This document shows positions 117 to 56,104 of a stretch of DNA of 64,000 bases, piece by piece. The notes beneath the pieces were generated by a model that searched no databases, was not told where the DNA came from, and saw only the letters and a program-made list of their open reading frames with translations. This DNA is from Siphonodentalium dalli (taxonomy: Eukaryota > Mollusca > Scaphopoda > Gadilida > Siphonodentaliidae), in NCBI GenBank assembly GCA_032622095.1, contig CP136069.1:14120450-14184449 (forward strand), read 5' to 3'. Each line of letters opens with the position of its first letter. Position 1 is the stretch's first letter. Position numbers and translations under genes: made by a program.

Positions 117-2071
117 TTACAGAATAATACGTTTTTTAGATAGCATTTCTCCCAATTTCTTCCCTCGGCGAAAGACGAGCGCTGGAGATTGCATTGAAGA
201 GTAGCTCTCATGAGTGGATTTTGAAACAATGTTCCAGTTATTTTTCAACACGTCTTGTATTCTTGATGCACCAGTATGGTATTGTGTGCAAAAGTACGAT
301 TTATTTGATGCAATGAGCCGGTGCTTCTTAGTTAGTTTAGCACGTCGGTCTTTAAATGTCAATGTCTGCAGGGCCGCCGATATTTCTTTCGGGCTATAGC
401 CTCTGTTTTTTAGCCTATGTTGAAACCCGGAACAACGGTTTATAAATTCCGTTTCAGTAGATGAGTTTCGTAGGTATCGAGTGAATTCTCCTATGAGAAA
501 TGATTTGAAACAGCTGGAAGGGTGGTTGGACTTCCTATGTAGATACTGGAATGATTCAGTCTTTTTTATGTGACATTTCATGTCAAGTATTCCAGTATTC
601 ATAAATGTCGGACCTTTATATATGTCAAGATCAAGGAAACTGACTTCATTTTCCTCAATTTCATATGTGAATTTTAATAGGTCATGGGCATGGTTTGCCA
701 TAGAGAAGAAGTCAAGCACCTCTTGGCGCGTACGTAGCATTCCAGATAAGAAAGCCATCATCTCTGTATCTAAAATTTAGTATGCATTTGTGTGAATGCT
801 CAAAGTTGTCCATAAGCGTTTTGATGTGCTTGTATATGGCCAAATCACAAATTTCAGGTGATGGTACAGCACCTTGTGGTGCGCCCACTATTTAAATTTA
901 ATTGTCGATAGCATTTTCCATTAAATGTAAATTCATTACATGTGAGTAATAATTCAGCTATTCTGACAAGTTCGTCAGTTGACGGTCTAGTGATATCATA
1001 CACCATGTCAGTTGTTGAGTTCAGGTAGAAGCGTAATGAATCTAATAATTCAGAGAATCTCAGATTTGTATAGAGAGAGCAGACATCATATGTCACAAGT
1101 AGTGCATCTTTAGGGATGACGGTTTTTTCAATCACTTCAATCAATTGCCGGGTATCACTTAGGTAGGTTTCTTGTAGGCGAACAATCGGCTTTAGGAAGT
1201 AGTCTAAAAATCGTCCGATCTTTTCAGTTGCGCTTTTGTATTGTGATATAATCGGCCTAACTGGAGGAACGAGTTTTTTACCGCTATCGTTAAAGGCGGG
1301 ATCTATATCATTAAGTATGTTCCCTAATTTGTGAATTTTAGGGAGTAGGTATAGATGTGGGGTAATAATCTCCTCACGTCTATTAAATAAATAGGCATAG
1401 GTGGAGTCGTCAATTGATCCACGTTCATGCATGCCATGTACTAGAGTAAGTACTTTGGAATGAGTAATTTTTGTATCAATTGATGATATTTCCTTGTAGT
1501 GTATCCCATCTTGGAGTTGGGTGAGCCCTTCAGTTATATAATCAGCAGTATTCAAAATAACTGTGGTGTTATTTTTATCTGCTTTCATTATAATCAGGTT
1601 GTCATTTCTTTTAAGACTTGTAATCGCCTGTCGTAGGCCTGGCGTAAGATTATCATGGAACGTTTGTTTGTAGTCACAGAGTTCCAATTTACATGCATAT
1701 AGGTAATCCTCAAGGCAGTTGCCTGCTAATGGTGGTACATATGCAGACGGTTTTTTAAAAGGGTGCTCTTTTTTCGTCCAATTGTCAGAGCTTTTGATCA
1801 CGTATTGGATCCTCATGTTTCGTTCGAAGGCCTTAAAGTCCTTCATTGTGGATTTAGTGGCTACCCGGGTGGCCGGAATAAAGTTCAATCCATAACCCAG
1901 TAAGTGAATTTGATCATCGCTCAGACGATGATCAGAAAGGTTTCTGATAAATGATTTTGCTTTGAGCAACTTAGTAGCTGTATTGCGATGGTGTGACCTT
2001 AAGGCCTTCATTTTTTCAATTTTGCGTACATTGCTTCTGTCGGCATGTTTGCGAATGAGTCTGCGACCCAT
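117..2071 (-). pseudogene. PLE reverse transcriptase, near full length, two frameshifts
   Basis: The first open segment (2071 to 854, 405 codons) starts at an ATG directly preceded by in-frame TGA. It shows PLE RT landmarks in order: NLS..LL..GLNF (about residues 44-64), IIMKADKNN (160-168), LYLLPKIHK (240-248), PPVRPIISQYKSATEKIG (269-286) and motif A TYDVCSLYTNL (327-337, catalytic Asp 329). Reading is lost after NGKCYRQ because of a 10-bp insertion near 889-898 that is absent from the copy at 4225-5113. The rest continues in another frame (761 to 117) after a second, 4-bp CGTA duplication near 731. The protein would prime and copy PLE RNA. No GIY-YIG endonuclease domain is visible at either end, so this looks like an endonuclease-lacking PLE. 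As it stands the copy cannot make full RT. Confidence 0.85.
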
Positions 2072-2251
2072 TTCTCAGTTTGTTTGAGAGCTTGTACAGA
2101 GCGACTGATCAGGGCGATAGTTATAACCCAATGACAGACGGTTCAGCCACACAGTAGCTTGTGTAAAGACTGCCACACTATTGCATGGTAGGCGTTGGTG
2201 GGTAGACAGGTCACGTGATATGATGTCCATATGTGTAGAAAGGGGGTGGGG

Positions 2252-2338: not shown

Positions 2339-2769
2339 GTGAATATAATAAGGCTGTACATGTAGCTAGATAAATAGCTACCAGACAACTGCACTAAGAG
2401 TATAGTAGTTACTCTGTCCGTGGGTATTATATAAGTATCCATGTGCTTATGCCCATACATTAGTATATTTGTATATATGCTGAACAATACGAATTCATAA
2501 AATTGTTGCAATGAACAATATACAGTTGTAATATACGTACATATCGTATTGTATGTACGGCGTGTATAAATTACATGCACGCTAGTAAGATTGATAAGTT
2601 GTGAATATTTAATACATATAAACAAGTTATACTGTCAATGTGTAGTGGTGTCGGTCACCAAGTGCTACACATAGATTCATATATTGTTTATATATGCTAA
2701 ACAAATCAAATACATGTTTTTTATATATAATTGGATAAATACCAACATCCCATCCGATCTATGGACGGG

Positions 2770-2878
2770 GCATTCTATGTAGCACTCTACACTGCCTATT
2801 AGTGTTTCGACCTATTTTGTCAACCAATTTAGAAATTGATTAACCCGCAAGGTCTCATCAGGAGAGAGCGGAAGTGAG
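2770..2878 (-). ncRNA. Hammerhead ribozyme in PLE pseudo-LTR
   Basis: On the minus strand CTGATGA (2861-2855) is followed by stem II (GACCT...AGGTC, with an inner near-palindrome in the loop). Then come GAAAC, stem III (CACT, 7-nt loop, AGTG) and GTA, with predicted cleavage between 2788 and 2787. The stem I strands CTC and GAG flank the core. All invariant core bases (CUGANGA, GAAA, UH) and the A15.1-U16.1 pair are present. The type is I (stem I open). The motif lies in the pseudo-LTR upstream of the RT ORF and in the same orientation, as known for PLEs. Self-cleavage would generate RNA ends of tandem transcripts. Confidence 0.85.
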
Positions 2879-4224
2879 AATCCTCAAAGTAACTGAGGGC
2901 TCATCACATACATGTATGTGCGTATGTGTTAATGGTAGGTACAGACTGTCTGATGACAGCTGAGTTGAGCGATGGCCTTTGAGAAGGCTTCACATTTTGT
3001 TCAGAGTATACCATGCTTATTATAATAAGCGTGGGTAAATTGCGTCAATCTTTGTGAAATGGCAATAAGTCAGAAGCATCAGTTAGTGCAAGTTAATGCA
3101 GACTGAGGTTGCATGGTCAGTACTTAATATGTTGAGAATATTGGTTGTCAAAACAGCACGTGCCCGGGTACGCCCACCGTTCTTTGTGTAATACGGCAGT
3201 ATAGCAAACACGTAATTTCATAGGTTCGTTGGGTGTGATTGACACATCCACTTCAGAAACCTAATATACTGTGGAGTTTTTTCTGGATCTCGCCAAATCT
3301 TAGGTCAATCTAGTTTTTTGTCTTTTTATATTTGTATATAAGCAGTATTGTGCAAGTAAATGTAGATCAAATATGTAATGGACAATAAGCACACATTCTT
3401 GTTAGTAATTTTCAAGATATATATGATCGTACAGAGTCCCGCCAGTATATCATGACACAGTGTACGAGTTTAACGTATGCAACATGTAGCTACTATACGT
3501 AAAAGTGGCGTACATGTATCCAGCTATAGGAGAGTCATTAAGTTTGTTTCATATCCAACTTTCATGTCTGTGCATGTACATATATAGTTTGGATACACTT
3601 TTGATACGTTCTTCGGTACCGAATTAGTTGGTCAGTAAGAGAGTGCGTGTGTGATGTAGCATCTATATACATGTATCATGTATCTGGTATGTGCCTGTCC
3701 AGATATATCGGGATACTTTGGCGAGAACCATGTCTACGGAACTATATGAGATATATTTGCATGTATCTCATGCAAACATTCCCCATGGAGTCATGTAACA
3801 GTTGCGTAAGGTTGTGGTGGCATACAGTTAAAGCTGCGCCAGATTAGAGCTATCAAGTGTCAGATCACGGGTGTTCACACTTTCCTTTGATCAATTAGTG
3901 TAGATTGTTGTAATCTCATTAGCAGGTGTTGTAAGTGATACCAACATTAAATAGTTTGCTCTTCAACAGGCTGCGCGTCGTTAAAAGCCCATTTTTCAAA
4001 AGTCATGGCAGTCACATATCGTGCTCAAAGACATATTACGTTTAGTGTAACAGGAATTAAAATTTTAGCCCATCAGGGGGTCTTTCATTCCCGTCTAGGG
4101 GAGCTTTCATATAAAGATGAATAAATACAAACATCACGTTCCATGTGTTTTCTTTGTCAATGAGTAATTTATCCATTGCACGGGTGTGCATATACATGTA
4201 GTATGGATATCTTTCGTATAGTCT
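2879..4224 (-). mobile_element. PLE 3' noncoding and pseudo-LTR body
   Basis: No coding potential is seen; the 66-codon plus-strand frame at 3647 is not convincing. A diverged copy of this segment occurs on the opposite strand at about 8846-9470 (shared blocks include the CAACAGGCTG region and the ribozyme), which shows it belongs to the PLE and not to flanking DNA. The junction to the RT 3' end lies near 4225. Confidence 0.7.
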
Positions 4225-5113
4225 TTACAGAATAATACGTTTTTTAGATAGCATTTCTCCCAATTTCTTCCCTCGGCGAAAGACGAGCGCTGGAGATTGC
4301 ATTGAAGAGTAGCTCTCATGAGTGGATTTTGAAACAATGTTCCAGTTATTTTTCAACACGTCTTGTATTCTTGATGCACCAGTATGGTATTGTGTGCAAA
4401 AGTACGATTTATTTGATGCAATGAGCCGGTGCTTCTTAGTTAGTTTAGCACGTCGGTCTTTAAATGTCAATGTCTGCAGGGCCGCCGATATTTCTTTCGG
4501 GCTATAGCCTCTGTTTTTTAGCCTATGTTGAAACCCGGAACAACGGTTTATAAATTCCGTTTCAGTAGATGAGTTTCGTAGGTATCGAGTGAATTCTCCT
4601 ATGAGAAATGATTTGAAACAGCTGGAAGGGTGGTTGGACTTCCTATGTAGATACTGGAATGATTCAGTCTTTTTTATGTGACATTTCATGTCAAGTATTC
4701 CAGTATTCATAAATGTCGGACCTTTATATATGTCAAGATCAAGGAAACTGACTTCATTTTCCTCAATTTCATATGTGAATTTTAATAGGTCATGGGCATG
4801 GTTTGCCATAGAGAAGAAGTCAAGCACCTCTTGGCGCGTAGCATTCCAGATAAGAAAGCCATCATCTCTGTATCTAAAATTTAGTATGCATTTGTGTGAA
4901 TGCTCAAAGTTGTCCATAAGCGTTTTGATGTGCTTGTATATGGCCAAATCACAAATTTCAGGTGATGGTACAGCACCTTGTGGTGCGCCCACTATTTGTC
5001 GATAGCATTTTCCATTAAATGTAAATTCATTACATGTGAGTAATAATTCAGCTATTCTGACAAGTTCGTCAGTTGACGGTCTAGTGATATCATACACCAT
5101 GTCAGTTGTTGAG
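4225..5113 (-). CDS. PLE reverse transcriptase, 5'-truncated open copy
   Basis: This is the C-terminal part of a PLE RT with no internal stop (291 residues from the first Met; it probably has no start of its own). Motif B is VGAPQGAVPSPEICDLAI (residues 37-54), motif C RYRDD (76-80) has the catalytic Asp pair, and motif D SFLDLDIY is at 118-125. The thumb, with the PLE-typical FQYLHRKSNHPSSCF block, runs about 148-178. The frame ends after a basic tail (SKKRIIL). No GIY-YIG domain follows in any frame down to 4110. The copy is cut at 5113, directly joined to a PLE 3' tail (5115 on), which fits 5' truncation during insertion behind an older copy. It lacks motif A and the N-terminus, so it is a remnant even though open. 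Confidence 0.88.
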
Positions 5114-5114
5114 T

Positions 5115-5326
5115 TTTTATATAAAATTGGATAAATACCAACATCCCATCCGATCTATGGACGGGACATTCTATGTAGCACTCTACACTGCCTTTTAGTA
5201 TATATAAAAATATAAAAATAAAGACAAAATAGGTCGAAACACTAAAAGGCAGTGTAGAGTGCTACATAGAATGTCCCGTCCATAGATCGGATGGGATGTT
5301 GGTATTTATCCAATTTTATATAAAAA
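5115..5326. repeat. Inverted pair of PLE 3' tails
   Basis: The left arm 5115-5199 and right arm from 5241 to about 5326 are exact inverted copies of the PLE tail that begins in stem III of the hammerhead and ends in TTTATATAAAAA. The 41-nt AT-rich spacer holds part of the ribozyme (AGGTCGAAAC) only on the right side. The two tails point outward, so minus-strand and plus-strand PLE material meet head to head here. The palindrome could extrude as a cruciform. Confidence 0.85.
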
Positions 5327-5329
5327 CTG

Positions 5330-6540
5330 ATGCTCTTGTGGGTATAACCTGTGTATCTCCCATTCCGGTGGGGTGATCCATCTCTAGTCTGACTGTGGCG
5401 GCGTTCTGTGTAGCACCATTGCACACTGCCTGCCTATACACATTCGAAGATAGGGTGCCTATACTGACACCCATTCTTACTAAATGTGTATTACTTAACC
5501 ATTTAATCATGCTTACTACACGGTATGACAACATGGCAATCCCTGAATGTGGATTCTTGCCTATATATTGTATTATATTATAGTATAATATATTATCTAA
5601 ATATACAACTGTTTCCAATAGGAAACGTATATATATACTGACTTCCATTCTAACCGAATGCGTTCCACTCAACTATTTAATCATTCTTTCTACACAATAT
5701 GACACCCCTGAACATGGAGGCCTGTCTACATATCAGATGCGTAATATCTAAATATGCAACTGTTTTCCAATAGGAAACGTGTATATATAATGACTCTCAT
5801 TCTTAACGAATGTGTACTACTTAACTATTTAATCATGCTTTCTATGACGGTATGACACCATGACATCCATGAACATGGATGCCTGCCAACATATCAGATG
5901 CATAATATCTAAGTATGCAACTGTTTTCAAATAGGAAACGTGTGTATATATACTTACTCACATTCTAACTGAATGTGTACTACTTAACTATATAATCATG
6001 TTTTCTACACGCTATGCGACCAGGACATCCCTGAACTAGGATGCCTGTCTACATATTATGTGCATACTATATAGGTATGCAACTGTTTTCCTACATGCTA
6101 CGTGTATATATACTTACTCTCATTCAAACAGAATGTGTACTACTTAACTATTTAATCGTGCTCTATACACGATATTACACCATGACATCAATGAACGTGG
6201 ATGCCTGCCTATATACATAGTATATGTATACTATCTAAGTATGCAAGTGTTTCCAATAGGAAACGTGTATATATACTGACTTACATTCCAACCGAATGTG
6301 TTCTACTCTACTATGTAATCATGCTTTCTACACGGTGTGACACCATGACATCCCTTAATTTGGATGCTTGCCTACATATTAGATGTATAATATCTAAGTA
6401 TGCAACTGTTTTCCAATAGGAAACGTGTATATATACTGATTCTCATTCAAACTGAATGTGTACCACTTAACTACTTAATCATGCTATCTACACGATAGGA
6501 CACAATGACATCCCGTAATATGGATGCCTGCCTACATTTC
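5330..6540. repeat. About 160-bp satellite, roughly 7 copies
   Basis: The repeat unit contains TTCCAATAGGAAACGTGTAT, then TACTGACTCTCATTC, GAATGTGTACTACTTAACTA, CATGCTTTCTACACG and GACACCATGACATCC. Copies start near 5470, 5637, 5791, 5953, 6112, 6278 and 6438, a spacing of about 154-166 bp, with 10-20 percent divergence. Short frames inside it repeat with the unit and are not genes. The same family recurs at 7616, 8235, 9626, 18526 and 19145. Confidence 0.85.
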
Positions 6541-6546
6541 GAACTA

Positions 6547-7595
6547 GCAAGAAGTGTGCATTATATATACACAAAAGATAAACTAAATGAATAAATTCAT
6601 AGCAATTAGAAGATTGAAATCTTCCCATGATTACACACGATAAATAGTGTTAAAACCAATTGTACATGTTAATGTACTGAGACATTAGTGTCTCGAAGTA
6701 TAAACTCTTCATCCACAAACGTGAAAAATCACAAACTCAAGTGACCTGCTAAAATTGGTCTACTCTAGCTATCAAAATGGCAAACATATCCAACTAGCAA
6801 TGCGTGTGCTTTGTATTTAAACGAGGGCCCACTGATATTCAATTGAATTCATCCATTTATTTGGGAAATTCATTGGGTAACACGCTCAACTTATATGTAA
6901 GACACATATAGAGCCCACTAATATTATTTGATATTATGCTCTGTCTTGCTTGATTATTATATACACATGCGAGCCAACTGGAATGCACCATTATCTCAAT
7001 CCATATATACATGGAGAGCGGTGTGTTCTATGCTCTTACACGCTATTTTGGAATTAACATATACATGTAATACCAAATGCCATCAAATATGGCTTACTAT
7101 ACACAAATTTATCTGGAAATGTATATGATTGGTGTGTCAAAACATCGACACGTCATTAATCACCAACTCCTATAGAGTAGGGATACCAATTTCCTATCAT
7201 TAAAGTTACACAGGGCACAATGTCCACCACATGTTGATTCTGTCATGGAACAGTTTGAACTAGACTAAACCAATTCCTTCCAGACCACATGTGTTCTGGG
7301 TATATAGCATATAGGAAAACTTATATACTTCACACTCAACGTGTCGGCCCTAGTAAGCGCTGTTGTAAAGACAGGTCAAGCCATTCTAGGTTGCATATAA
7401 TATGCAAATACAGAAGAAATCTGCATCTAAAATGCAACAAATAGGCATAAACTATGCTGGTTTAAATTATGACTGTCACATTACTAACTCATTTGACTCA
7501 AAGTGCAAAACTTGGGCGTGACACGACCGACTGCTCTAATAATATAAGCAGCACGATGGAATCTATAAATTCCGGGCTCAGAATACTCATTAAAG
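6547..7595. other. Gene-free segment of the duplicated unit
   Basis: AT-rich DNA with no frame above about 70 codons and no recognisable motif. It repeats at 17457-18505. The TA at 6545-6546 just before it is the empty insertion site of the 6.6-kb element found in the second copy. Confidence 0.5.
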
Positions 7596-7835
7596 TGGTA
7601 TTCATCCAATTTTATATAAAAATCTCATTCTTACCTAATGTGAACCACTTAAATATTAAACATGCTTTCTACACGGTATGACACCATGACATCCCTGAAC
7701 ATGGATGCATGTCTACATATTAGATGTATGATATCTAAGTATACAACTCTTTTCCAATAGGAAACGTGTATATATATACTGACTCTCATTCTTACCGAAT
7801 GTGTACTAGTTAAGTATTTAATCACTCGATACCCA
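7596..7835 (+). repeat. PLE tail remnant followed by one satellite unit
   Basis: TTCATCCAATTTTATATAAA (the PLE 3' tail end) is joined directly to a copy of the 160-bp satellite (TCTCATTCTTACC to GTGTACTAG). It repeats at 18506-18745. Confidence 0.65.
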
Positions 7836-8232
7836 CGTAATTCATTTACTGAAACGGCATTTATGAACCGTTGTTCCGGGTTTCAACAAAAGCTTAAAAA
7901 ACAGGCTATTACCCGAAATAATTATCGGCGGCCCTGCAGACATTGACACTCAATGACCGACGTGCTAATTTAACCAAGAAGCACCTGCTCAATGCCACTG
8001 ATAAATCATATAAATTTGCACACAATACCATACTGGTGCATCATAATATAAGACGTGTTACAAAACAACTCGAACATTGTTTTAAACAAAATCACTCATG
8101 TGTGATACGAACAATGTCCTAACAATATGCACAAACGCGCAGTGAATAATTTACTCATTGAAAATGGAAACACATGGAAAGTCTCGTTCAACGATAGGAC
8201 GTGATGTTCGTAGTTATCCATCCTTACATTAA
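7836..8232 (+). pseudogene. Decayed PLE RT C-terminal fragment
   Basis: The plus strand shows diverged equivalents of the PLE thumb region: TGAACCGTTGTTCCGGGTTT (the CSGFQ region), ATTATCGGCGGCCCTGCAGA, GACCGACGTGCTAATTTAAC and CACAATACCATACTGGTGCA. These match blocks in the minus-strand copies at about 430-260 and 4540-4370. Stops and indels occur in every frame. It is a dead, older PLE in the opposite orientation, and it repeats at 18746-19142. Confidence 0.75.
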
Positions 8233-8445
8233 AAACTCCCCTACATGGGAACCACTTGACTATTTAATCATGCTTTCTACACGGTATGACACCATGACAT
8301 CCCTGAATTCGGATGCCTGCCTGCATATTAGATGTATAATATCTAAGTATGCAACTCTTTTCCAATAGGAAACGTGTATATATACTGACTCTCATTCTTA
8401 CCGAATGTGTACTACTTAAGTATTTAATCACTCGATACCGACGTA
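8233..8445. repeat. Single satellite unit between two PLE fragments
   Basis: One 160-bp family unit (CACTTGACTATTTAATCATG to TAAGTATTTAATCAC) separates two similar PLE fragments. This implies that a satellite-plus-PLE block was itself duplicated. It repeats at 19143-19355. Confidence 0.65.
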
Positions 8446-8845
8446 ACTCATTTACTGACACGGAATTTATGAACCGTTGTTCCGTGTTTCAACAAAAGCT
8501 ACAAAACAGGCTATAACCCGAAAGAATTATCGGCAGCCCTGCATACCTTGACACTCAATGACCGACGTGCTAATTTAACCAAGAAGCACCTGCTCAATGC
8601 CACTGATAAATGATATAATTTTGCACACAATACCATACTGGTGCATCATTATATAAGACATGAAAACAACTCGAACATTGTTTTTAAAAATTCACTCATG
8701 TGAGATACGAATAATGTCTTACTTCATGCACACACGCGCAGTGAATAATTTACTCATTGAAAATACATGGACAGTCTCGTTCAAAGATCGGACGTGATGT
8801 TCGTAGTTATCCATCCTTACATTAAAAACTCCCCTACATGGGAAT
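8446..8845 (+). pseudogene. Second decayed PLE RT C-terminal fragment
   Basis: Similar to the fragment at 7836-8232 but with its own substitutions and small deletions. It runs through the RT 3' end into the PLE 3' noncoding region (TTAAAAACTCCCCTACATGG, matching the minus-strand element near 4085-4105). No frame is open. It repeats at 19356-19755. Confidence 0.72.
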
Positions 8846-9624
8846 CAAACACCCGCTAAGGGACTAACTATTTAATTCTTGTACTTTACGATATGTGACT
8901 GCCAGAATCCTTGAAATATTGGCTTTTAACGACACACAGCCTGTTGAAACGTAGATTACTCAATACAGATATATCTTACAACACTTGCAAGAGATTACAA
9001 CAATCTGGTCTAAATGATCAAAAGGTAAGTGCAAACTGCCTTGATCTGATACTTGACAGGACTAATCTGGCACACATGTGAACCGAATGCTACCACGCTT
9101 TTACACAGTGGCCATGTCAATCGCACTTAACGAACCAATGAAATTACGTGTTTGCTATACTGCCGTATTACACAAAGAACGGGGGCTGACCATAGCACGT
9201 GTTATATTGACCAGCGATATTAGTAGTAAGTGCAGACCACACAACTTCGGGTCTGTGATAACTTACACATAATGTTGCTTCCGACTTATTGCTATTTCAC
9301 AACGAATGACACAATAACTCACGCCTATTATAATAGGCATGTTACTATGAACAACACGCGAAGCCTTGAAGGCCCTCGCTCAATTCAGCTGTCTTGAGAC
9401 AGTATGTATCTACCATGCACACATACCTATATGTGTTGATCCCTCAGTTACTTTGAGGAATCTTAATTCCGCTCTCTCCTGATGAGACCTTGCGGGTTCA
9501 CCAATTTCTAAATTGGTTGACAAAATAGGTCGAAACACTAAAAGGCAGTGTAGAGTGCTACATAGAATGTCCCGTCCATAGATCGGATGGGATGTTGGTA
9601 TTTATCCAATTTTATATAAAAACT
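8846..9624 (+). mobile_element. Plus-strand PLE pseudo-LTR and 3' tail
   Basis: Diverged reverse-complement copy of 2725-4090, including the CAGCCTGTTGAAAC block, the palindromic CCTATTATAATAGGC, the hammerhead ribozyme and the tail ending in TTTATATAAAAA. The satellite array starts directly after the tail. It repeats at 19756-20532, where a different sequence follows the tail. Confidence 0.75.
9462..9572 (+). ncRNA. Hammerhead ribozyme in plus-strand PLE
   Basis: The core reads CTGATGA (9479-9485). Stem II is GACCT (9486-9490) with AGGTC (9527-9531), containing an inner CCAATT/AATTGG hairpin (9501-9516). Then GAAA (9532-9535), stem III CACT/AGTG (9536-9539 with 9547-9550) and UA (9551-9552), with predicted cleavage after A9552. 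Stem I uses CTC (9476-9478) with GAG (9553-9555), possibly extended by ATTC/GAAT farther out. Every invariant position is kept although the neighbouring RT is decayed. Confidence 0.86.
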
Positions 9625-9625
9625 G

Positions 9626-10840
9626 ATGCTCTTGTGGGTATAACCTGTGTATCTCCCATTCCGGTGGGGTGATCCATCTCTAGTCTGACTGTGGCGGCGT
9701 TCTGTGTAGCACCATTGCACACTGCCTGCCTATACACATTCGAAGATAGGGTGCCTATACTGACACCCATTCTTACTAAATGTGTATTACTTAACCATTT
9801 AATCATGCTTACTACACGGTATGACAACATGGCAATCCCTGAATGTGGATTCTTGCCTATATATTGTATTATATTATAGTATAATATATTATCTAAATAT
9901 ACAACTGTTTCCAATAGGAAACGTATATATATACTGACTTCCATTCTAACCGAATGCGTTCCACTCAACTATTTAATCATTCTTTCTACACAATATGACA
10001 CCCCTGAACATGGAGGCCTGTCTACATATCAGATGCGTAATATCTAAATATGCAACTGTTTTCCAATAGGAAACGTGTATATATAATGACTCTCATTCTT
10101 AACGAATGTGTACTACTTAACTATTTAATCATGCTTTCTATGACGGTATGACACCATGACATCCATGAACATGGATGCCTGCCAACATATCAGATGCATA
10201 ATATCTAAGTATGCAACTGTTTTCAAATAGGAAACGTGTGTATATATACTTACTCACATTCTAACTGAATGTGTACTACTTAACTATATAATCATGTTTT
10301 CTACACGCTATGCGACCAGGACATCCCTGAACTAGGATGCCTGTCTACATATTATGTGCATACTATATAGGTATGCAACTGTTTTCCTACATGCTACGTG
10401 TATATATACTTACTCTCATTCAAACAGAATGTGTACTACTTAACTATTTAATCGTGCTCTATACACGATATTACACCATGACATCAATGAACGTGGATGC
10501 CTGCCTATATACATAGTATATGTATACTATCTAAGTATGCAAGTGTTTCCAATAGGAAACGTGTATATATACTGACTTACATTCCAACCGAATGTGTTCT
10601 ACTCTACTATGTAATCATGCTTTCTACACGGTGTGACACCATGACATCCCTTAATTTGGATGCTTGCCTACATATTAGATGTATAATATCTAAGTATGCA
10701 ACTGTTTTCCAATAGGAAACGTGTATATATACTGATTCTCATTCAAACTGAATGTGTACCACTTAACTACTTAATCATGCTATCTACACGATAGGACACA
10801 ATGACATCCCGTAATATGGATGCCTGCCTACATTTCGAAC
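9626..10840. repeat. About 160-bp satellite, second copy of the array
   Basis: Copy of 5330-6540 at offset 4,296. It ends at the TA target site of the 6.6-kb insertion. Confidence 0.85.
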
Positions 10841-10842
10841 TA

Positions 10843-11221
10843 CACTGTTAAAAATTTTCCGTTTTCAGACGGTACAAAGATCCGGAAAATTGCTGCCGGC
10901 ACTATGTTCTGTAAGGTTACGGAACATTGTATAATTTCATTATGGCAATATGTTCTGTATGGTGACGGAACATTGTATCATTTTATTACGGCAATATGTT
11001 CTGTACAGTTACGGAACATTGTATCATTTAGTTGCGGCAATATGTGCTGTATGGTTATGGAACAATGTTCCGTAATCATATGGGACATAGGGCCGCGACA
11101 AAACGGTCCAGTGTGCCGTGTCTTGACGCAGTTATGTGCCGGCAGCAATTTTCCGGATCTTTGTTCTGTTGTATATTTGCGGAACTCTGTTCCGTTTGAG
11201 AATGTCAATTTTTTAACAGTG
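10843..11221. repeat. MITE-like 379-bp unit forming the left end
   Basis: The terminal CACTGTTAAAAATTTTCCGT recurs inverted at 11221 (AATTTTTTAACAGTG), and a second block, AAAGATCCGGAAAATTGC, recurs inverted near 11145-11162. Between the arms, about three 55-57-bp repeats contain ACGGAACATTGTATCATTT and CGGCAATATGTTCTGTA. The 135-codon frame across it is an artefact of these repeats. Since TA follows the distant right end and not 11221, this unit moved as part of the larger element. Confidence 0.75.
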
Positions 11222-12222
11222 CATTAGTTGAATTTACTGTCTAAAATGTATTTTTCCTACAAACTAGGCAATTATATGACTTATTATCTTTAAACTGTGT
11301 CCTATGTCCAATGCCCTTTTAAAAAGTGGATTCCATATCCAAGGGAGGGGTGGCGGTTCACACCACCTGAAGGTTATAACCCACTTCAGATGGAATACCG
11401 CTAAACATTTATAAATAAATACAAGACATTTCATCATTTTTTTAAATTACTTCGGAAAAGTGTCTTTCATAAATTTACAAGTCAATGTTTGCAAATTAAT
11501 TTTTCTGACAAATTCCACACTATACTATTGACTAACAAGAATTTATAGCATCAGATACCCCATATGTGGTACACGTGCGCTCTTTGGTGCTATACATAAA
11601 ATGTGATAAATAGTTGGGCTTTTTGAAGTTACAAAATCCATTGCATAATGTTACATTATACCGGTAACCATACTTGTCTAATGCAACGATATTTTGATAG
11701 GGAAGGCTAAATGCTCCAAGAATAAAGTATAAACAATAATTTTATATTAATGTATAATAAAATTGCACAACATACATGTATGGCAATGAATATAACCAGG
11801 GAGTGATTGCATGACAAACAGTTCCATATGCTGAAGTGTCAAATTACTCTTAAATACCATACCGGTACATACAGTACAGACAGTTGGTCCACAGGAGAAT
11901 GTTCACTGGAAGCACTTCAAAATAATTTGAGCAATTTGTCACATATATATCCATACCATCATTACGTTGAATAGTTCAGCACTGTGCACACACAATATTT
12001 AGCTGAGGTGGAAGTGGTACCAACTGGTATGTCCACTGTTCCCAAATGGTCCTATGGTTAAGACATTCAAGGATGGTACACAAGTACGGATCGTCATCAC
12101 GTCAATTCACCATCGCGCACAAAGAAGGTGCTATTCCACACAAGTCACATATTTACACACAGTACCAGCACAGAAATACGATTTGTCATCCACCTTGAAA
12201 GAAAGTTATCTCACAGAATCAC
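11222..12222. other. Interior of the 6.6-kb element, no gene recognised
   Basis: AT-rich sequence without a convincing frame. The 62-codon plus-strand frame at 12054 overlaps the opposite-strand exon candidate and has no family resemblance. Confidence 0.4.
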
Positions 12223-12355
12223 CTTGGCATGTTGGAGTTTAAGTATGCCAGTATACCGGTACATGTTCAGTAGCCCTTGACACTGCTTTACTGTAACCTT
12301 GTCTCCGGTTGTTAATGGTATGGTACATCCTTTCAAATCAGATTCAACAGCCATC
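12223..12355 (-). CDS. Possible internal exon, unknown protein
   Basis: On the minus strand a good acceptor (CTATTTTCAG) precedes 133 bp with one open frame (MAVESDLKGCTIPLTTGDKV, continuing to KLQHAK). A good donor (CCAAG|GTGATT) follows. The exon would be phase 1 in, phase 0 out. The residue composition looks like real protein, but I do not recognise the family. No partner exon was found nearby. It could be a host gene piece captured by the element, an old transposase exon, or chance. Confidence 0.3.
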
Positions 12356-12524
12356 CTGAAAATAGTTATATCACAAATATACATACATGTATACCAAGTC
12401 ACTATGTTATATGCATCAATATTATCAGGATTTTAACTTCTTGCACTCGCCTCACTTTTCACCATATCATCTGAAAATAACTTTCTAATCTGCTCGTACA
12501 TCATACATGTCATGTGTATCTATC

Positions 12525-13800
12525 TTTCAAGTTAATAATAAACACTCTTTATTAGCAATTACTAGTGTCCCTTTAAGTCATGTGATGTCAACAGCAGCTA
12601 TCACGTGACATTTCCCACATCATTTTACTTTTGTGCACCAACTTTTTCACATATCTTCTGGGTTGATAATGAACGCTCTTTATTTATCATATAAATTATT
12701 AGTAGTCCCCTTTAAGTCACATTAGGTCAAAGGCGCCTATCCCATGAGATTCCCCTCGGCAGGTAACCCATCTGTAACAATTCTCCTACATATCTTCTTC
12801 TAAGCTGATAAGGGACGCTCTTTATTGACCATTACCCCTTTAAGACATCTGAGGTCAACGGCACCTATCCCATGACACTCCATGGGTCAATGTAATGTAT
12901 CTCAGAGTTACAATTTTCACCGCCAGATTGCAACCATTTTGGTATATAATTAATTATCTAATTAAATTATTTGTTAGTGCCCTTTTAAGACATATGAGGT
13001 TAACGGATCCCGGGGACCTATCTAATAAGATTCCCCAGGATGAATGACCCATATGTATATATAGATAATAGTAAACCCTGTGCTGATGCATTCTCTTATA
13101 TATGCAAGTTGCTGATAGGGCGCCTATAGCATATATAAGAGAATGCAGTGGCCTATCAATATTTACCTTGATCTTTTAAGCCAGTGCATGCTCTCATATA
13201 TGCGAGACTCCCTATGGGCGACACACATATTAGATAATGTGCTGGCACATGGTCTTTAATGCCAGCGCAAATCCCGCCACGAAAGGGTTAAGGCTTATAT
13301 ATTGTTTACGGTGTGAAATGATCACGTGTATTTGTATATTCGGATATTGTTCCTAAACTCAAGGATATAATTATGGACATTTTAAATTGTAGGTCATTCT
13401 CCAGATATGGTTACATCTATTGTTTTAAGTTGATAATAAACGCTCTTTATTGCCAATTAGTAGTGCCTCTTTAAGTTATTTGCATATATTTTTAAGCCCA
13501 TGACACACCTGTGTCAAATTGCCTTGATGTTCAAATTTGCCGACATATCTTCTGAGCTGATAATAAACACTCTTCGTTGATCACCTAATTTATGTTAATA
13601 TAATTTAGTACTCCACGTTTAAGTCATCTGATGTCAATGGTGCCTATGTCATTATATTTGCCTGGTCAGGTGACCTATGTGTACCAATTTTCCTACATAT
13701 CGTCTAAGCTAATAAGGAACGCTCTTTGTTGCTCGCATATGATAAATATAATTGTTAAGTCCCCCTTTAGGATCAACGGCACACCCCCGGTCAATTTACC
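12525..13800. repeat. Dispersed tandem motif, about 130-140 bp
   Basis: A module of GATAATAAACGCTCTTTATT, then TAGTGCCCTTTTAAG, then AGGTCAACGGCACCTATCCC recurs near 12532, 12664, 12799, 12975 (partial), 13428, 13558 and 13705, with strong divergence. There is no coding content. Confidence 0.65.
13086..13147. repeat. Palindrome with TATATATGC arms
   Basis: GCATTCTCTTATATATGC and its inverted form GCATATATAAGAGAATGC flank a short loop. The same arm sequence occurs in the fold-back element at 40802-41256. Confidence 0.8.
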
Positions 13801-14858
13801 ACTGAATATCAATTTCCAGCGACCATTTCATTCACACGCACAATATTGACTGTCTCATGAGTCGTGCCACTAATCATAGTCTAATATGCCCTCAGACTGT
13901 TAATTATTCCTGTTGACAATTACTAAATCAAGAAACACCCAAATTTCAAAACTCATATTGTTGGTATATTACATGTATATTGGTATATAAATATTTGGAT
14001 AGACTTTAAGTCTATCCAGACTGGTTGATGATATGCACAAGTTCATCTGTATCATATATACTCACCGACTAAGGCTGTACCTGTTCCTATTCACACATTC
14101 AAGGATGTCGGGCAACTTCCACTGGTGGTCATTATCTGTCTTTTACTTGAGATGGCCTCACACTTCATCCTTCAGCCTTTATATTGTGTTTGTACTGTAC
14201 TGCTTGCATGCATGCTATGTCCAATATATCCCCATCAGCTGTTTCAGGAATCGGACTGTGGAATACAAGTTGATTCAAAACTTTAATATTAATAGGAATA
14301 CATGTACATGTATATGTTTTTCAATCGTCTTTATTGCTAATGAATCGTAATGATTGCATGACGTGGATGTAAGTGTAACGCCTTACCCAACCGTCTCAAA
14401 ACGCCACCACTACTCTTCAGAGGCCACATCATCACGGCGACTTGGGTTCGGGACCCACCATTAGAGCCAATTCACATTGACAACATCTAACTAGTATTTA
14501 CATATAAACATCAATTTATATATACAAGGAATATAACAGACGGAACTGATGTCAAGACATGCGCATGGTTTACAACTAGATCTAATGTAGCGCGAACGCG
14601 TAATCACACAAAATAAATCAGAATTAATTGTCTTTAAGTATTGGTTGAAAGATAATTATAGAACAGTTTACAATCACCCCTCTTCCCAAATCCATGATTG
14701 CTGCGAAAAACCGATCAGTCTATTTTACTCTTTAGCCCTGCCCGACTGGGCTATTATAATTTATAATATGACATTGATCGATCGCTGGTTCACCCATGCA
14801 GTCCCAGAACTGTACATGTAGCTGATATTTTTTGTTTTACATAGGGGCCCGTACTAGA
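13801..14858. other. Interior of the 6.6-kb element, no gene recognised
   Basis: The 105-codon frame at 14033-14350 has no recognisable domain and an AT-driven composition. A TTAATTATTCCTG block (13900) resembles one at 23446-23465. Confidence 0.4.
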
Positions 14859-14914
14859 TCATGCCATGAATCTCTACTCGGGCTGACGCCCGGAGTAGAG
14901 AGTCGTGGCATGAT
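14859..14914. repeat. Strong imperfect hairpin
   Basis: ATCATGCCA..TCTCTACTC.GGC pairs with GCC.GGAGTAGAGA..TGGCATGAT around a TGAC loop. Outer blocks (GGGCCCGTACTAG and CTAGTATGGGC on the opposite strand) extend the symmetry. It may be a small fold-back element nested in the 6.6-kb insertion. Confidence 0.7.
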
Positions 14915-17400
14915 ATACATGTAGTGCCCATACTAGTAATCACATGATATGGCCATCAATGGGATCATATTATTTTCAAAATGTCCGAGTCTGGGCTAAC
15001 AACTAATTTGTGAATATGCCAGTTGCAATTGCAATATATTATATATATATTGCTGATATACAAATTAATAATAGCACATCTATAAATGAACGTTCAGAAG
15101 ACCACGATCCAATAGTAAATGGAGGAATCGGGCCCGACAAAATCGTGGATACATGTAGTTTGTTCACACGATTGCGATATTGTCGTACTAGTACATGATG
15201 ATATCGTAGGTTGTTCGAAAAGCATATGATTGACTACTGTGATCTTTCCAGACACGATTTGTACGTACACACGACTGCGATTACGTCGCAAGTGGAGGTA
15301 TACAAGGATACGCCATGATTTTGAATCTGAAATCAAACAGTGCTTGATATTATTTTATGACTTGCGAGTTTGACATCATCATGCACAGTCCAACTATCGG
15401 TTACTTCCTACGGCGGAAACCCTTTCATTACGATTGAATTGTGTCATCTGAACGTTCACCAAACTGTGCAACAGCTAAAGTAAATTATAATGTATCGACG
15501 ATCGTATGAAAGAAACGCAGAACAATACTTCCATTCACACAACGTGACACAAGTGATGTTTGGTGAGCTGTAAAATGTTAACTGGTGACACAGAAACACA
15601 GAAAGTTGTGATAAACAATGACTGAGTGAATCGGATTGAGAAATTGAACAACAGTTACTGGCTGACTGGTGAAACTGAAAGTTGAAAAATCCAACATCAG
15701 CAGATCAGGGGAAAATCAGACAAATTCACATCTGGAATGACTTTGTGACACTTCACCTGTTTTATTCCTTTTAGTATGTTACATCCAATAGCTGTTTAGT
15801 CGTACTGTGTGTTGTATCGCTTTGTTTAGCGTGACATTTGCTTGCTCAAAGCGCTTTTAAAATAATTTGACAGACAAAAATATCTGAAATGCGCGAATAA
15901 ACGCATATAGTTATTTCCCATTTCGAACTTCCTTCTGGTTGAATTGCGAACCGAAACAGTAACTGACGTGAGCCTATTGAGGTCACGGTCAACATAATGT
16001 TTAACCCATACCTACATCGATTGCTATATAAGCATGTACACATATACCAGTTAATAACTGCACATGTGTGGGAGTTGATTTAGTCATTACTGACCGATGT
16101 CACTCATAAAGTAGATAAAACATCGTAACACACTCCTTTGGACATGCCACTAAAATAACTCCAATAGCTTACACATATTCCAACTGAGATACCGTATAGG
16201 GTCGTTAAATTGTTTTATATTGCGATTTTGTATTTTTGTTGGTTTGGTGTTTCAATAAAACAACTATAAAGGCAAATCATGAATCACTATTAGATTATTA
16301 CTAGGTCCTAAACATCCACGGTCAATTTTACACCAAAATTAGTCAACATTTCCCAAGCCAAGTTTCCTCTTATACCAGGCAAAATAAAATCGAACAATAG
16401 ATGTAATTGCCACCAATTCGTACTACACAGGTATCGCAGATATCCATAGAATCATCCAGAAGTAATTCGTCGAAAAGCATTGACAGTGCTCAGCTCAAAA
16501 TGCATATAGAACGCTCTTTATTATACCGCATTTGGGCGACGGGAGCATAGTCGCGCATTATAAGCAGTTTGCAATATATCCCAATACAAAGGAAACCATA
16601 TATTTCAAACCTATAACTTGTAAATAATATAACAATTTATATAATTACAGCTTTGTCATTAATGTGATGCAAACGGAATTCAGAAATCAAGCAAAGTGAC
16701 ACGTATACGTGACAAACGAGCATTCTCCAAAGACCATGTGCAGGCCTATATTAGAAACATAAATCTTTCAATTTACTTTAAATGACCATTTACGGCTGTC
16801 AGCTCAACTATATACACAGCATTGAAAAGATTCTTAATCACCCATCTATGTACACCAAGTTAGTTTGCATTCCTGTGGTGTGGAACTAGAGCTCCGGCGG
16901 GGTGCATGTCGATACACCATGCAAAGGCGATCATTTATGCGGTCCTCTACTGCAATGCCGTATATATGGCTTAGCAATCATCATTTTCCTGTCAGCAAAG
17001 TGACAATGTTACGACTAGTGATGTTATAAATGGATCAGAATGGATTGAGATAACGCCATTATATAAATAGGTCATAATACAGCATTCCGCAACAGAGATA
17101 TTAAATTAGTTTATCAATGGCGCCGGTTGTTTAATCTATCAATAAAATTAGACTGCACGCACGAGGCGTCCGGTGTAATATATAAATGACAAGACTACGA
17201 CGCGAAAAATGATTCACAATATATAGATTAACTTACCTGATTATAATCAAACACTCTGGACAAAATATATTTCGTGCCGACACTGAGTCTCCTGCAGGTC
17301 TTCTTGAAATATTCAAAACAAAGAGGATGTAACCACGTGACTCCGTACCCAGCGTTCAAATTACGGATCTATGTTCCATCAGGGTGATTACGGCACAATG
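14915..17400. other. Interior of the 6.6-kb element, no gene recognised
   Basis: About 2.5 kb with only short frames (60-80 codons, some overlapping on both strands at 15010-15336). No transposase signature or splice-supported exon was seen. Confidence 0.4.
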
Positions 17401-17456
17401 AAAAATTTGAAAACGGATCATAGAGTAGTGTCAGAACGGACATTTTTAACAGTGTA

Positions 17457-20400
17457 GCAAGAAGTGTGCATTATATATACACAAAAGATAAACTAAATGA
17501 ATAAATTCATAGCAATTAGAAGATTGAAATCTTCCCATGATTACACACGATAAATAGTGTTAAAACCAATTGTACATGTTAATGTACTGAGACATTAGTG
17601 TCTCGAAGTATAAACTCTTCATCCACAAACGTGAAAAATCACAAACTCAAGTGACCTGCTAAAATTGGTCTACTCTAGCTATCAAAATGGCAAACATATC
17701 CAACTAGCAATGCGTGTGCTTTGTATTTAAACGAGGGCCCACTGATATTCAATTGAATTCATCCATTTATTTGGGAAATTCATTGGGTAACACGCTCAAC
17801 TTATATGTAAGACACATATAGAGCCCACTAATATTATTTGATATTATGCTCTGTCTTGCTTGATTATTATATACACATGCGAGCCAACTGGAATGCACCA
17901 TTATCTCAATCCATATATACATGGAGAGCGGTGTGTTCTATGCTCTTACACGCTATTTTGGAATTAACATATACATGTAATACCAAATGCCATCAAATAT
18001 GGCTTACTATACACAAATTTATCTGGAAATGTATATGATTGGTGTGTCAAAACATCGACACGTCATTAATCACCAACTCCTATAGAGTAGGGATACCAAT
18101 TTCCTATCATTAAAGTTACACAGGGCACAATGTCCACCACATGTTGATTCTGTCATGGAACAGTTTGAACTAGACTAAACCAATTCCTTCCAGACCACAT
18201 GTGTTCTGGGTATATAGCATATAGGAAAACTTATATACTTCACACTCAACGTGTCGGCCCTAGTAAGCGCTGTTGTAAAGACAGGTCAAGCCATTCTAGG
18301 TTGCATATAATATGCAAATACAGAAGAAATCTGCATCTAAAATGCAACAAATAGGCATAAACTATGCTGGTTTAAATTATGACTGTCACATTACTAACTC
18401 ATTTGACTCAAAGTGCAAAACTTGGGCGTGACACGACCGACTGCTCTAATAATATAAGCAGCACGATGGAATCTATAAATTCCGGGCTCAGAATACTCAT
18501 TAAAGTGGTATTCATCCAATTTTATATAAAAATCTCATTCTTACCTAATGTGAACCACTTAAATATTAAACATGCTTTCTACACGGTATGACACCATGAC
18601 ATCCCTGAACATGGATGCATGTCTACATATTAGATGTATGATATCTAAGTATACAACTCTTTTCCAATAGGAAACGTGTATATATATACTGACTCTCATT
18701 CTTACCGAATGTGTACTAGTTAAGTATTTAATCACTCGATACCCACGTAATTCATTTACTGAAACGGCATTTATGAACCGTTGTTCCGGGTTTCAACAAA
18801 AGCTTAAAAAACAGGCTATTACCCGAAATAATTATCGGCGGCCCTGCAGACATTGACACTCAATGACCGACGTGCTAATTTAACCAAGAAGCACCTGCTC
18901 AATGCCACTGATAAATCATATAAATTTGCACACAATACCATACTGGTGCATCATAATATAAGACGTGTTACAAAACAACTCGAACATTGTTTTAAACAAA
19001 ATCACTCATGTGTGATACGAACAATGTCCTAACAATATGCACAAACGCGCAGTGAATAATTTACTCATTGAAAATGGAAACACATGGAAAGTCTCGTTCA
19101 ACGATAGGACGTGATGTTCGTAGTTATCCATCCTTACATTAAAAACTCCCCTACATGGGAACCACTTGACTATTTAATCATGCTTTCTACACGGTATGAC
19201 ACCATGACATCCCTGAATTCGGATGCCTGCCTGCATATTAGATGTATAATATCTAAGTATGCAACTCTTTTCCAATAGGAAACGTGTATATATACTGACT
19301 CTCATTCTTACCGAATGTGTACTACTTAAGTATTTAATCACTCGATACCGACGTAACTCATTTACTGACACGGAATTTATGAACCGTTGTTCCGTGTTTC
19401 AACAAAAGCTACAAAACAGGCTATAACCCGAAAGAATTATCGGCAGCCCTGCATACCTTGACACTCAATGACCGACGTGCTAATTTAACCAAGAAGCACC
19501 TGCTCAATGCCACTGATAAATGATATAATTTTGCACACAATACCATACTGGTGCATCATTATATAAGACATGAAAACAACTCGAACATTGTTTTTAAAAA
19601 TTCACTCATGTGAGATACGAATAATGTCTTACTTCATGCACACACGCGCAGTGAATAATTTACTCATTGAAAATACATGGACAGTCTCGTTCAAAGATCG
19701 GACGTGATGTTCGTAGTTATCCATCCTTACATTAAAAACTCCCCTACATGGGAATCAAACACCCGCTAAGGGACTAACTATTTAATTCTTGTACTTTACG
19801 ATATGTGACTGCCAGAATCCTTGAAATATTGGCTTTTAACGACACACAGCCTGTTGAAACGTAGATTACTCAATACAGATATATCTTACAACACTTGCAA
19901 GAGATTACAACAATCTGGTCTAAATGATCAAAAGGTAAGTGCAAACTGCCTTGATCTGATACTTGACAGGACTAATCTGGCACACATGTGAACCGAATGC
20001 TACCACGCTTTTACACAGTGGCCATGTCAATCGCACTTAACGAACCAATGAAATTACGTGTTTGCTATACTGCCGTATTACACAAAGAACGGGGGCTGAC
20101 CATAGCACGTGTTATATTGACCAGCGATATTAGTAGTAAGTGCAGACCACACAACTTCGGGTCTGTGATAACTTACACATAATGTTGCTTCCGACTTATT
20201 GCTATTTCACAACGAATGACACAATAACTCACGCCTATTATAATAGGCATGTTACTATGAACAACACGCGAAGCCTTGAAGGCCCTCGCTCAATTCAGCT
20301 GTCTTGAGACAGTATGTATCTACCATGCACACATACCTATATGTGTTGATCCCTCAGTTACTTTGAGGAATCTTAATTCCGCTCTCTCCTGATGAGACCT

Positions 20401-20532
20401 TGCGGGTTCACCAATTTCTAAATTGGTTGACAAAATAGGTCGAAACACTAAAAGGCAGTGTAGAGTGCTACATAGAATGTCCCGTCCATAGATCGGATGG
20501 GATGTTGGTATTTATCCAATTTTATATAAAAA
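17457..20532 (+). repeat. Second copy of the PLE-containing half unit
   Basis: Copy of 6547-9622 at offset 10,910. It contains the gene-free segment, satellite units and the two decayed PLE RT fragments (18746-19142 and 19356-19755), and ends in the PLE pseudo-LTR and tail. The tail's final TATATAAAAA is followed by a new sequence (20533), unlike the first copy. Confidence 0.88.
20372..20482 (+). ncRNA. Hammerhead ribozyme, duplicate copy
   Basis: Same sequence as 9462-9572: CTGATGA at 20389-20395, GAAA at 20442-20445, predicted cleavage after A20462. The core is intact. Confidence 0.85.
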
Positions 20533-20987
20533 CTTCTGTGGTTCTTTATTTATCACACACAATTTAACCCCACTCTCTGTAACACATTATTCATCAAAAA
20601 AGCACATTTTTCCACCACAAGTCATATTCAGGCCCCATTTTCACACAGTTTTTGGGGTCTGGTGTTGCAAACTTGGATCGGCTATGGAAGACTGTACAAG
20701 ATCCTTTCCATGAGAGAACTTCTGGTGATGTGAGGTCATTGAGTCCAGATCTGATCAGCTGAGCATCAAGCACATGACTTTATCAGCACATGGAAGACTA
20801 AAATATGACATTTTCAGGTCTGCAAGGGTGATCCAAGATAACTGGATGTGGGTGTATATTGAATTAGTTGAACAAAGATATGCTCTCTTTGAAATGCTGA
20901 AGCATTTTCTTAAATGTGTCCAAGTTTTAGTGCTATTAACCTTCAAATGGCCATACCCACCAGTGAAAATGAGACACTTTTATTATA
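20533..20987 (+). repeat. 456-bp repeat module, solo copy
   Basis: Begins CTTCTGTGGTTCTTTATTTA and ends in GACACTTTTATTATA. It corresponds to 32087-32541 and to the middle part of the 1,353-bp units at 33440 and 37545. Both borders are sharp, so it behaves as a discrete unit. No terminal inverted repeat is evident, and the frames inside it are short. Confidence 0.8.
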
Positions 20988-23562: not shown

Positions 23563-24238
23563 CAGGAGAAGTCGGCCCCGCTACGAAGTCGGCCCCAGAG
23601 AAGTCGGCCCAGAAGTCGGCCCTGTACGAAGTCGGCCCAGCTATTAACATCAGTTAGTGACATGTTTACTCAATTGAGTAACATACATGTATATCAGGTG
23701 TCACGGAAACCTTGTTCAACACTACATTGTATATGACTTAGTGTTGATCTTTATGGGCGTTTCGCTGACTGCTTCCATGTGGAAATCCCTCTGGCGCGAC
23801 GCCCATTATAATTATGACAGGACATTGTTTAGGTCTATAGATTAATTGGCTGACTAAGTTTGAAGGTTCGTATCTGGTCTAATACCATGTCTTGTATATA
23901 TGGCTATTTTTCCGGTACAGATTTAAATTTCCGTTTAACGAACCCTATCAACATATCTGCGTAAAGCCATGACAGTGCGCGATAAGAAAATGGATTGCCA
24001 GGAGGTGATATAATCCTCCTTGACACCATGTGACCAAAACATGGTCACATAAAATGGAATGCTACGAGGTGATGTAATCCCTTATGACACCGTGTGGCGA
24101 AATGTCGGTCTCATCTTATTGTGCCACAGGCATTAACAAGCAGTAAAATAATAATGGGGCCGACTTTTCTTGACCAATCTTTAATTTACCCGGGCCGACT
24201 TCTCTTGTGGCCGACCTTGTTTTGGGCTGACTTCTCCA
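23563..24238. mobile_element. Fold-back element with GAAGTCGGCCC clusters
   Basis: The left end carries five GAAGTCGGCCC copies (23566-23642). The right end carries inverted copies (GGGCCGACTT type, about 24156-24236) and closes with CTTCTCC against the opening GGAGAAG. The roughly 500-bp core is unrelated DNA without a gene. No clear target duplication was found. Confidence 0.7.
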
Positions 24239-40665: not shown

Positions 40666-40752
40666 TACGGAACATCCTATAATTATTGTAACATTGAACT
40701 TAATGATCAACTTGGTGGTTGCTCCATTACGTGTCACGTACGATCATATTAT

Positions 40753-56100: not shown

Positions 56101-56104
56101 TCGA

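Follow-up and report, generated by a model that had tools for sequence, protein, structure and literature searches.

In the genome of Siphonodentalium dalli, the 5' ends of inserted copies of Penelope-like elements (PLEs) pile up at the predicted cut of the hammerhead ribozyme (HHR) that these elements carry (9552/9553 in the window, the whole stretch of 64,000 nucleotides analysed here), which suggests that the HHR works in living cells and shapes element copying. Judged by its membership features, the system is best taken as a hammerhead PLE with a non-autonomous partner. The hammerhead anatomy, the boundaries at the cut site, the chimeric head-to-head arrays and the direct repeats around two whole arrays are all present in the DNA itself, in the window and across a genome of 2.2 Gb in 9 contigs, which 41 matches to Wnt exons mark as that of an animal.

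The earlier note on this DNA had placed three type I hammerhead cores in the window, and a core-plus-stems descriptor (core-adjacent stem I of 3 bp, CUGANGA, stem II of 4 bp, GAAA, stem III of 5 bp, U-H) matched exactly those three places on both strands of the 64 kb, with no match in 100 dinucleotide shuffles. The core, CTGATGAG...CGAAAC, lies at 2861-2804 (minus strand), 9479-9536 (plus) and 20389-20446 (plus), and CUGAUGAG together with CGAAAC is present in all three copies. Letters and descriptor agree that the core bases, the A15.1-U16.1 pair and stem III are intact in each of them, as had been claimed, so that the type I features are all found: the CUGANGA and GAAA core, A15.1-U16.1, H17 (A in the window hammerheads) and three stems with an open-ended stem I. 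Stem II has 5 bp (GACCU/AGGUC, in DNA GACCT/AGGTC) and carries a long hairpin insert of about 38 nt, stem III has 5 bp (ACACU/AGUGU, in DNA ACACT/AGTGT) and a 7-nt closing loop, and stem I, inspected by eye, is interrupted (GAG/CUC, GC/GC, outer GAA/UUC). The cut is predicted at 9552/9553 in the first plus-strand copy, at 20462/20463 in unit 2 and at 2788/2787 on the minus-strand copy, and the variant L032 has a two-sided change in stem III, from A-U to G-C. On these letters the three window sites are real type I hammerheads, for which cleavage is predicted. The note had further spoken of hammerheads in both orientations of one element; HHRs do lie on both strands, but they belong to two different elements placed head to head and are not one ribozyme readable both ways. 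The features of the window are as follows.

2770..2878, minus strand: type I hammerhead of the RT-coding family (letters, descriptor), predicted cut 2788/2787
9462..9572, plus strand: type I hammerhead of non-autonomous unit 1 (descriptor); 5' ends of other copies lie at the equivalent of its predicted cut
20372..20482, plus strand: type I hammerhead of non-autonomous unit 2 of the tandem dimer (descriptor), 100% identical to unit 1
9553..9624, plus strand: tail of non-autonomous unit 1, the 3' end of insertions, elsewhere inserted alone as a stub
20463..20534, plus strand: same tail as at 9553..9624, here closing the array on its outer right
2718..2787, minus strand: tail of the RT-coding family, 97% to the non-autonomous tail
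9465..9864, plus strand: block common to both families (HHR, tail and initial ~240 bp of the unit), from the family alignment
5223..9624, plus strand: non-autonomous PLE unit 1, its 5' end truncated within the HHR at the head-to-head junction
9625..10842, plus strand: non-autonomous PLE unit 2, first part (window self-comparison)
17455..20534, plus strand: non-autonomous PLE unit 2, second part, split off by the 6.6-kb insertion 10843-17454
7822..8708, also 18732-19618, plus strand: duplicated RT C-terminal remnants (tblastn, blastn)
117..2074, minus strand: RT of the RT-coding family, broken in this copy by frame changes
2970..4109, minus strand: 3' region of a 5'-truncated RT-coding unit, upstream of the minus-strand HHR
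4109..5115, minus strand: 5'-truncated RT-coding unit, abutting the non-autonomous tail directly at 5112-5115
5112..5199, minus strand: left arm at the head-to-head junction, made of the 3' part of an HHR plus tail; matches the non-autonomous family at 100% identity (chimeric array)
5223..5328, plus strand: right arm at the head-to-head junction, again the 3' part of an HHR plus tail

Several further features lie in or around these elements. The insertion at 10843-17454 (6.6 kb, inside the second PLE unit) has inverted ends of about 21 bp (CACTGTTAAAAA...) and an apparent TA duplication, and looks like a DNA transposon. The segments 32540-36649 and 36645-40754 form a direct duplication of 4,110 bp whose copies are 100% identical; it either arose very recently, in tandem, or is an artefact of the assembly. 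Repeats of GAAGTCGGCCC stand beside the left end of the PLE array (L001 1480-1600) and again about 3 kb past its right end (window 23567-23643), and long tandem arrays of 29-, 51- and 54-bp units occupy 60613-63544, 57254-58936 and 55294-56101, respectively.

The earlier note had asked for a covariance search and held that scores at background level would speak against the ribozymes; background is what was obtained, so that the claim, taken as worded there, fails. Rfam reported no hammerhead at the gathering threshold, and none at E<=10 in window positions 1-24000 or in seven further loci searched. With 201 bases supplied, Hammerhead_3 scored 15.0 bits (E 1.3; gathering 48.5), and the natural variant L016 reached 16.3 bits (E 0.48), both of which are background level. 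A genome search with RF00163 gave no match and is uninformative, since its control was also unmatched. We discount the Rfam scores because the models expect short loops and stem II here contains the insert of about 38 nt. Minimum-energy folds differ from the exact hammerhead in all three copies: the two plus copies form stem II, stem III and a stem I shifted by one base (A17 paired), and the minus copy forms stem II and lacks stem III. The z-scores of the folds are unremarkable (-1.17 and -1.17 for the plus copies, -2.05 for the minus copy). Elsewhere in the genome, 14 copies have no stem-II hairpin (L013, L016, L017, L027, L039, L049, L063, L093-L096, L112, L113, L116); they have the same 3' flank, apparently from one insertion multiplied inside a larger repeat, and are natural short-loop variants suitable for cleavage assays.

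The association of the HHRs with PLEs, also claimed before, is borne out by an architecture of tandem and inverted pseudo-LTRs (pLTRs) with the HHR inside the pLTR. The two plus-strand copies are units of one recent tandem dimer and are not independent, as a blast of the window against itself aligns 6545-9624 with 17455-20534 and 5223-6546 with 9519-10842, both at 100%. Since the dimer is 100% identical, the intactness of its HHRs beside RT pieces full of stops, which had been read as a sign of selection, reflects youth and loses that meaning. The plus-strand HHRs belong to a young non-autonomous PLE, with units that contain duplicated RT C-terminal remnants, repeats of about 160 bp and a private segment of about 1 kb. 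A first look genome-wide found 425 candidate places for the plus-strand HHR segment, the best 40 of which were scored and are 98-100% identical, and the RT in the window units consists of C-terminal remnants only. The suggestion that these units move without an RT of their own fits both observations.

The minus-strand element is a member of a related RT-coding family, in which two fetched copies have an uninterrupted RT frame of 647 aa and one has a 246-aa ORF upstream of it. The RT, whose protein motifs may be PLE-like, gave a weak Pfam match to RVT_1 (E 0.0028, below cut-off), as did the relative at 4225-5154. Canonical PLEs have a GIY-YIG endonuclease, and endonuclease-deficient PLEs exist; Pfam found no GIY-YIG in six ORFs, one of them (42072-42995) lying outside the element. 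AlphaFold models were not usable for the RT (pLDDT 35) or the upstream ORF (57.6), and two matches of the RT to solved structures were dismissed, as they rest on a 26-residue stretch. The upstream ORF (L118:954-1691) is mostly helical at low confidence and has no confident Pfam match.

Between the two families, identity is 380 of 401 columns (94.8%) over 9465-9864 vs 174 of 239 (72.8%) over the flank 9215-9439 (Fisher p=1e-14), and we propose the shared block of HHR, tail and about 240 bp as a putative module for RT recognition and initiation. Among copies, core and stems differ less than the rest of the HHR: in a first group 6 of 1333 letters vs 33 of 2473 (p=0.010; 462 of 10223 in the upstream stretch), and in the RT-family group 4 of 589 vs 22 of 1113 (p=0.039; upstream 208 of 4503). 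These counts cover 58 and 24 copies (43 and 19 unique) from 100 fetched places, leaving out 18 places without a full, alignable upstream stretch, and their p values are indicative only, because the copies are related and not phylogenetically independent. They lend modest support to constraint on the HHR core and stems.

Inserted copies end in the tail, which measures 70 nt from the cut to the end of its A-run (9622) and 72 nt with the following CT; among the best 40 of the 425 genomic matches, 21 end at query 244-251, equal to window 9623-9630, and the tail occurs as a stub in L082, L022, L126 and L129. At the 5' side, a first count anchored at the predicted cut found homology stopping there in 9 of the 100 places listed (an ambiguous A in one of them); because such a pattern is biased towards the cut, the counting was redone with tail anchors. 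A genome-wide pattern of tail, 0 to 60 free nucleotides and tail anchor gave 15 matches in all (junction range about -42 to +18), with nine boundaries at the cut, three at +7 and one each at about +17, about -3 and about -39 (binomial P=4e-13 for one preset position in 61). Five of the nine exact junctions carry the same TT and may stem from one event; collapsed to one, they leave 5 of 11 at the cut (P=5e-7). The second count used a 27-mer within the tail, blind to the cut, and all 100 matches listed out of 233 were read. In 26 of the 100 the 5' end lies within -200 to +32, and six of these ends are at the cut: L019 (with a 3-nt overlap), L022, L059, L082, L087 (with one ambiguous A) and L088. 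The binomial P is 8e-8 (n=26), or 4e-8 (n=23) when the four non-cut ends at C2:2305, one local tandem array, are collapsed; L114 ends at +1 and L101 within a few nucleotides of the cut. The three junctions at +7 mean that not all ends are cut ends. This minor class (TACATAG) lies immediately beyond the inner helix of stem I and is seen at C1:41871251, C5:151273043 and C8:135358778. A seeming hot spot of boundaries 42 nt upstream was rejected, being a stem-II deletion in copies with identical flanks and no boundary.

Reading of the flanks yielded 15 exact cut junctions in 14 loci, of which L032 and L069 are one event and L134 was read only 20 nt downstream. Immediately before the cut stands the tail of another copy plus 0-3 nt in 12 of the 15 junctions, the extra nucleotides being TT, TG, CT, CG or TCG, G, or none (L134 has a mutated tail); in L019 the cut is preceded by an inverted copy, and in L082 and L129 by unrelated DNA. 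L019, L040, L059 and L128 have full-length units that begin at the cut, and a solo stub of about 70 nt begins there in L082.

The arrays themselves lie head to head with their tails outward. Among 41 pairs of neighbours less than 12 kb apart, taken from 100 matches listed out of 242 exact 34-mer matches, the orientation was (-,-) in 14, (+,+) in 14, (-,+) in 13 and (+,-) in none. By segment mapping, the two families are combined within a single array in the window, in L119, in L121 and in L131; in the window, the non-autonomous HHR and tail at 5112-5199 are followed by a truncated RT-coding unit. A single C/T marker for telling the families apart was dropped, as several places matched the other reference; since this marker is unreliable, only segment-mapped arrays are called chimeric, and L122, whose left arm has nothing but an RT-family-like tail, was left out. 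A direct repeat of 21 bp flanks the whole head-to-head array C5 (L123/L124), and that of L120 is flanked by a repeat of 12-13 bp, which the A/T run in the tail partly confounds. Flanking repeats were not found at L125, L133 and L131, three of the five arrays tested, and the left end of the window array, inspected by eye only, did not match the flank-repeat pattern.

Taken together, it is probable that working HHRs cut PLE RNA in vivo, that the cut RNA is the template, that the RT runs off its end and jumps, and that the non-autonomous family borrows this RT; catalysis, template jumping and use of the RT in trans are what we infer from the genomic pattern. The RT-coding family and the young non-autonomous family borrowing its RT would thus form a PLE pair. 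In cells, the HHR would cut element RNA at 9552/9553, and the cut RNA, with the 5' end GAGUGC..., would serve as template. The RT would initiate at the tail, about 70 nt downstream of the cut, copy leftwards and run off the cleaved 5' end; after adding 0-3 nucleotides without template, in many cases AA and hence TT in the reading, it would jump to another RNA's tail, whether that RNA is autonomous or non-autonomous. Cutting by the upstream HHR would give a full-length copy starting at the cut, and cutting by the downstream HHR would leave the RT only about 70 nt to copy, which would account for the stubs; extension of both ends of one target break would likewise account for head-to-head arrays with tails outward. 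Stalling on uncut, folded RNA could give the minor +7 class. At the cDNA end, the nucleotides added by the R2 RT are mostly A, and its jumping needs untemplated addition, best with +1/+2 nt (PMC8857657); A addition of this kind would read as TT before GAGTGC. The same source calls mostly-A addition (at least 3 nt, balanced dNTPs) non-productive for jumping and considers that R2 jumping perhaps has no physiological need (PMC8857657). Against our reading, ribozyme mutants of an Anolis PLE had no effect on insertion in vitro, and no reads started or ended at the cut (PMC11167929).

Ordinary unit borders, in which HHR, tail and body are unbroken, would need either uncut multi-unit RNA or a ligated circle. 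That tandem units arise from an RT circling an HHR-made circular unit RNA, and not from multi-unit transcripts, is a possibility we hold only tentatively. It is favoured by this continuity and by the near-identity of segments within arrays. Non-autonomous segments show 0 of 1056 differences in the window, in C2:5337 and between opposite arms of C1:1685, 0 of 1051 in C2:1677, 1 of 1056 in C2:1965 and 3 of 777 in C3:328, vs a median of 1.0% and no zero in 147 between-array pairs; five of 11 fetched segments (L139, L144-L147) were dropped from this set, having no match to the query segment, and C9:247, C7:1141 and C3:533 offered no comparable within-array pair. Among RT-coding units, the three in C1:245 have 0 of 1635 differences (three pairs), and there are none within the minus arm of C3:152.9 (three pairs) or between the arms of C8:720. 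In truncated, jumped units the count rises to 1-4 for C5 and 1-6 for C2:118, and it is 7 for the opposite arm of C3:152.9. Unit lengths also repeat within arrays, with 4456 twice in each of two C2 arrays, 4469 in both arms of L120 and 5785 and 5784 in C1:245 (4296 in the window). However, the same would be seen if a homogeneous tandem source were transcribed into one long RNA, 3 of 137 between-array pairs of RT-coding units are identical, two different C2 arrays share the length 4456, and C3:533 has units of 5319 and 5245. A wider formulation, also speculative, makes the HHR a switch of RNA fates, in which an upstream cut would give a full-length copy, a downstream cut a stub, and both cuts with ligation a circle copied round, the non-autonomous family being a retrozyme-like partner of 4.4 kb moved by the same RT. 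If this were true, circle copying would make homogeneous tandem arrays and hence the pseudo-LTRs typical of PLEs.

It is less likely that the HHR makes the ends and that tail-to-cut junctions form by RtcB-like RNA ligation before reverse transcription. Hammerhead products carry 5'-OH ends, which RtcB accepts and which would suit such a route. In addition, LINE-1 cDNA chimeras have been reported from pre-ligated RNAs and not from jumps (cited in PMC8857657), and retrozyme RNAs exist as circles (PMC7229834). Most tail-to-cut junctions nevertheless contain extra nucleotides typical of untemplated addition by an RT (the CT of L022 may be templated), and ligation is not needed for the flank-to-cut junctions of L082 and L129.

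Slightly less likely still is that the RT stalls or drops off at a folded, uncut HHR, so that 5' ends pile up without any cleavage. The three of 15 junctions at +7 are where a folded HHR should block the RT, but a roadblock should stop it on the 3' side of stem I (+7 or beyond) and not exactly at +1, where full-length units also begin, and the few extra nucleotides resemble run-off at an RNA end. The least probable reading, that the HHRs are relics intact only through the youth of their copies (the best 40 of 425 at 98-100% identity, the window dimer at 100%), sits poorly with insertion boundaries at the predicted cut, with core and stems changing more slowly than other HHR positions do and with a block conserved between families.

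Hammerhead-bearing PLEs are reportedly known from Cervera & de la Pena 2014 and Lunse et al. 2017, and the present elements resemble the known ones in that the PLE is tandem and partly inverted and its pseudo-LTR contains a type I hammerhead. PLE hammerheads have been described as usually minimal, without helix III (PMC6155905, PMC7761336), unlike those of S. dalli with five pairs in stem III and a long hairpin insert in stem II. PAc (Poseidon, Anolis carolinensis) also has its HHR at the junction of pLTR and body, initiates reverse transcription internally to the RNA and has both target strands cut and extended (PMC11167929). The minimal RNA of PAc starts close to the HHR cut (+20, the cut being at +26) and extends to +172 (PMC11167929). 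PAc differs in encoding a GIY-YIG and in that its HHR is dispensable in vitro (PMC11167929), whereas in S. dalli no GIY-YIG was recognised in the ORFs submitted to Pfam and genomic ends fall on the predicted cut. Animal retrozymes are likewise non-autonomous and tandem, with a type I HHR, and are suspected to be moved by PLEs, although their units are small, about 150-450 bp (PMC7229834). The small non-coding tandem unit of that length is not found here; our units measure about 4.3-4.6 kb and, unlike retrozymes, have a block in common with, and are joined to, an RT-coding PLE.

The HDV-like ribozyme of R2 works in a similar way, as the place where it cleaves itself correlates with, or determines, where inserted copies have their 5' end, though it has another fold, belongs to another class of retroelement and self-excises from a 28S co-transcript (PMC3774820). 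The corresponding trait, insertion 5' ends that equal the ribozyme cut, was found here in 9 of 15 junctions and in 6 of 26 boundaries among the 100 matches listed. The Penelope elements of Adineta vaga have direct and inverted pLTRs, mostly head to head, and their pLTR sequences suffice for insertion in trans (PMC3846280). That study differs in that the search listing of the paper does not contain the word 'hammerhead', and that it reports no evidence for its PLE types cross-mobilising one another (PMC3846280). The literature surveyed, to which key subscription papers did not belong, contains no report of PLE insertion 5' ends at a hammerhead cut.

The role of the minimal PLE hammerheads has been called a mystery (PMC7761336), and in S. 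dalli the role of a PLE hammerhead becomes testable. Insertion 5' ends at the cut nucleotide would be a DNA record of cleaved RNA used as template, and the same count of ends is feasible in other genomes that bear PLEs. It has been proposed that non-autonomous hammerhead elements are moved by PLEs, and both the chimeric arrays and the shared block speak for this.
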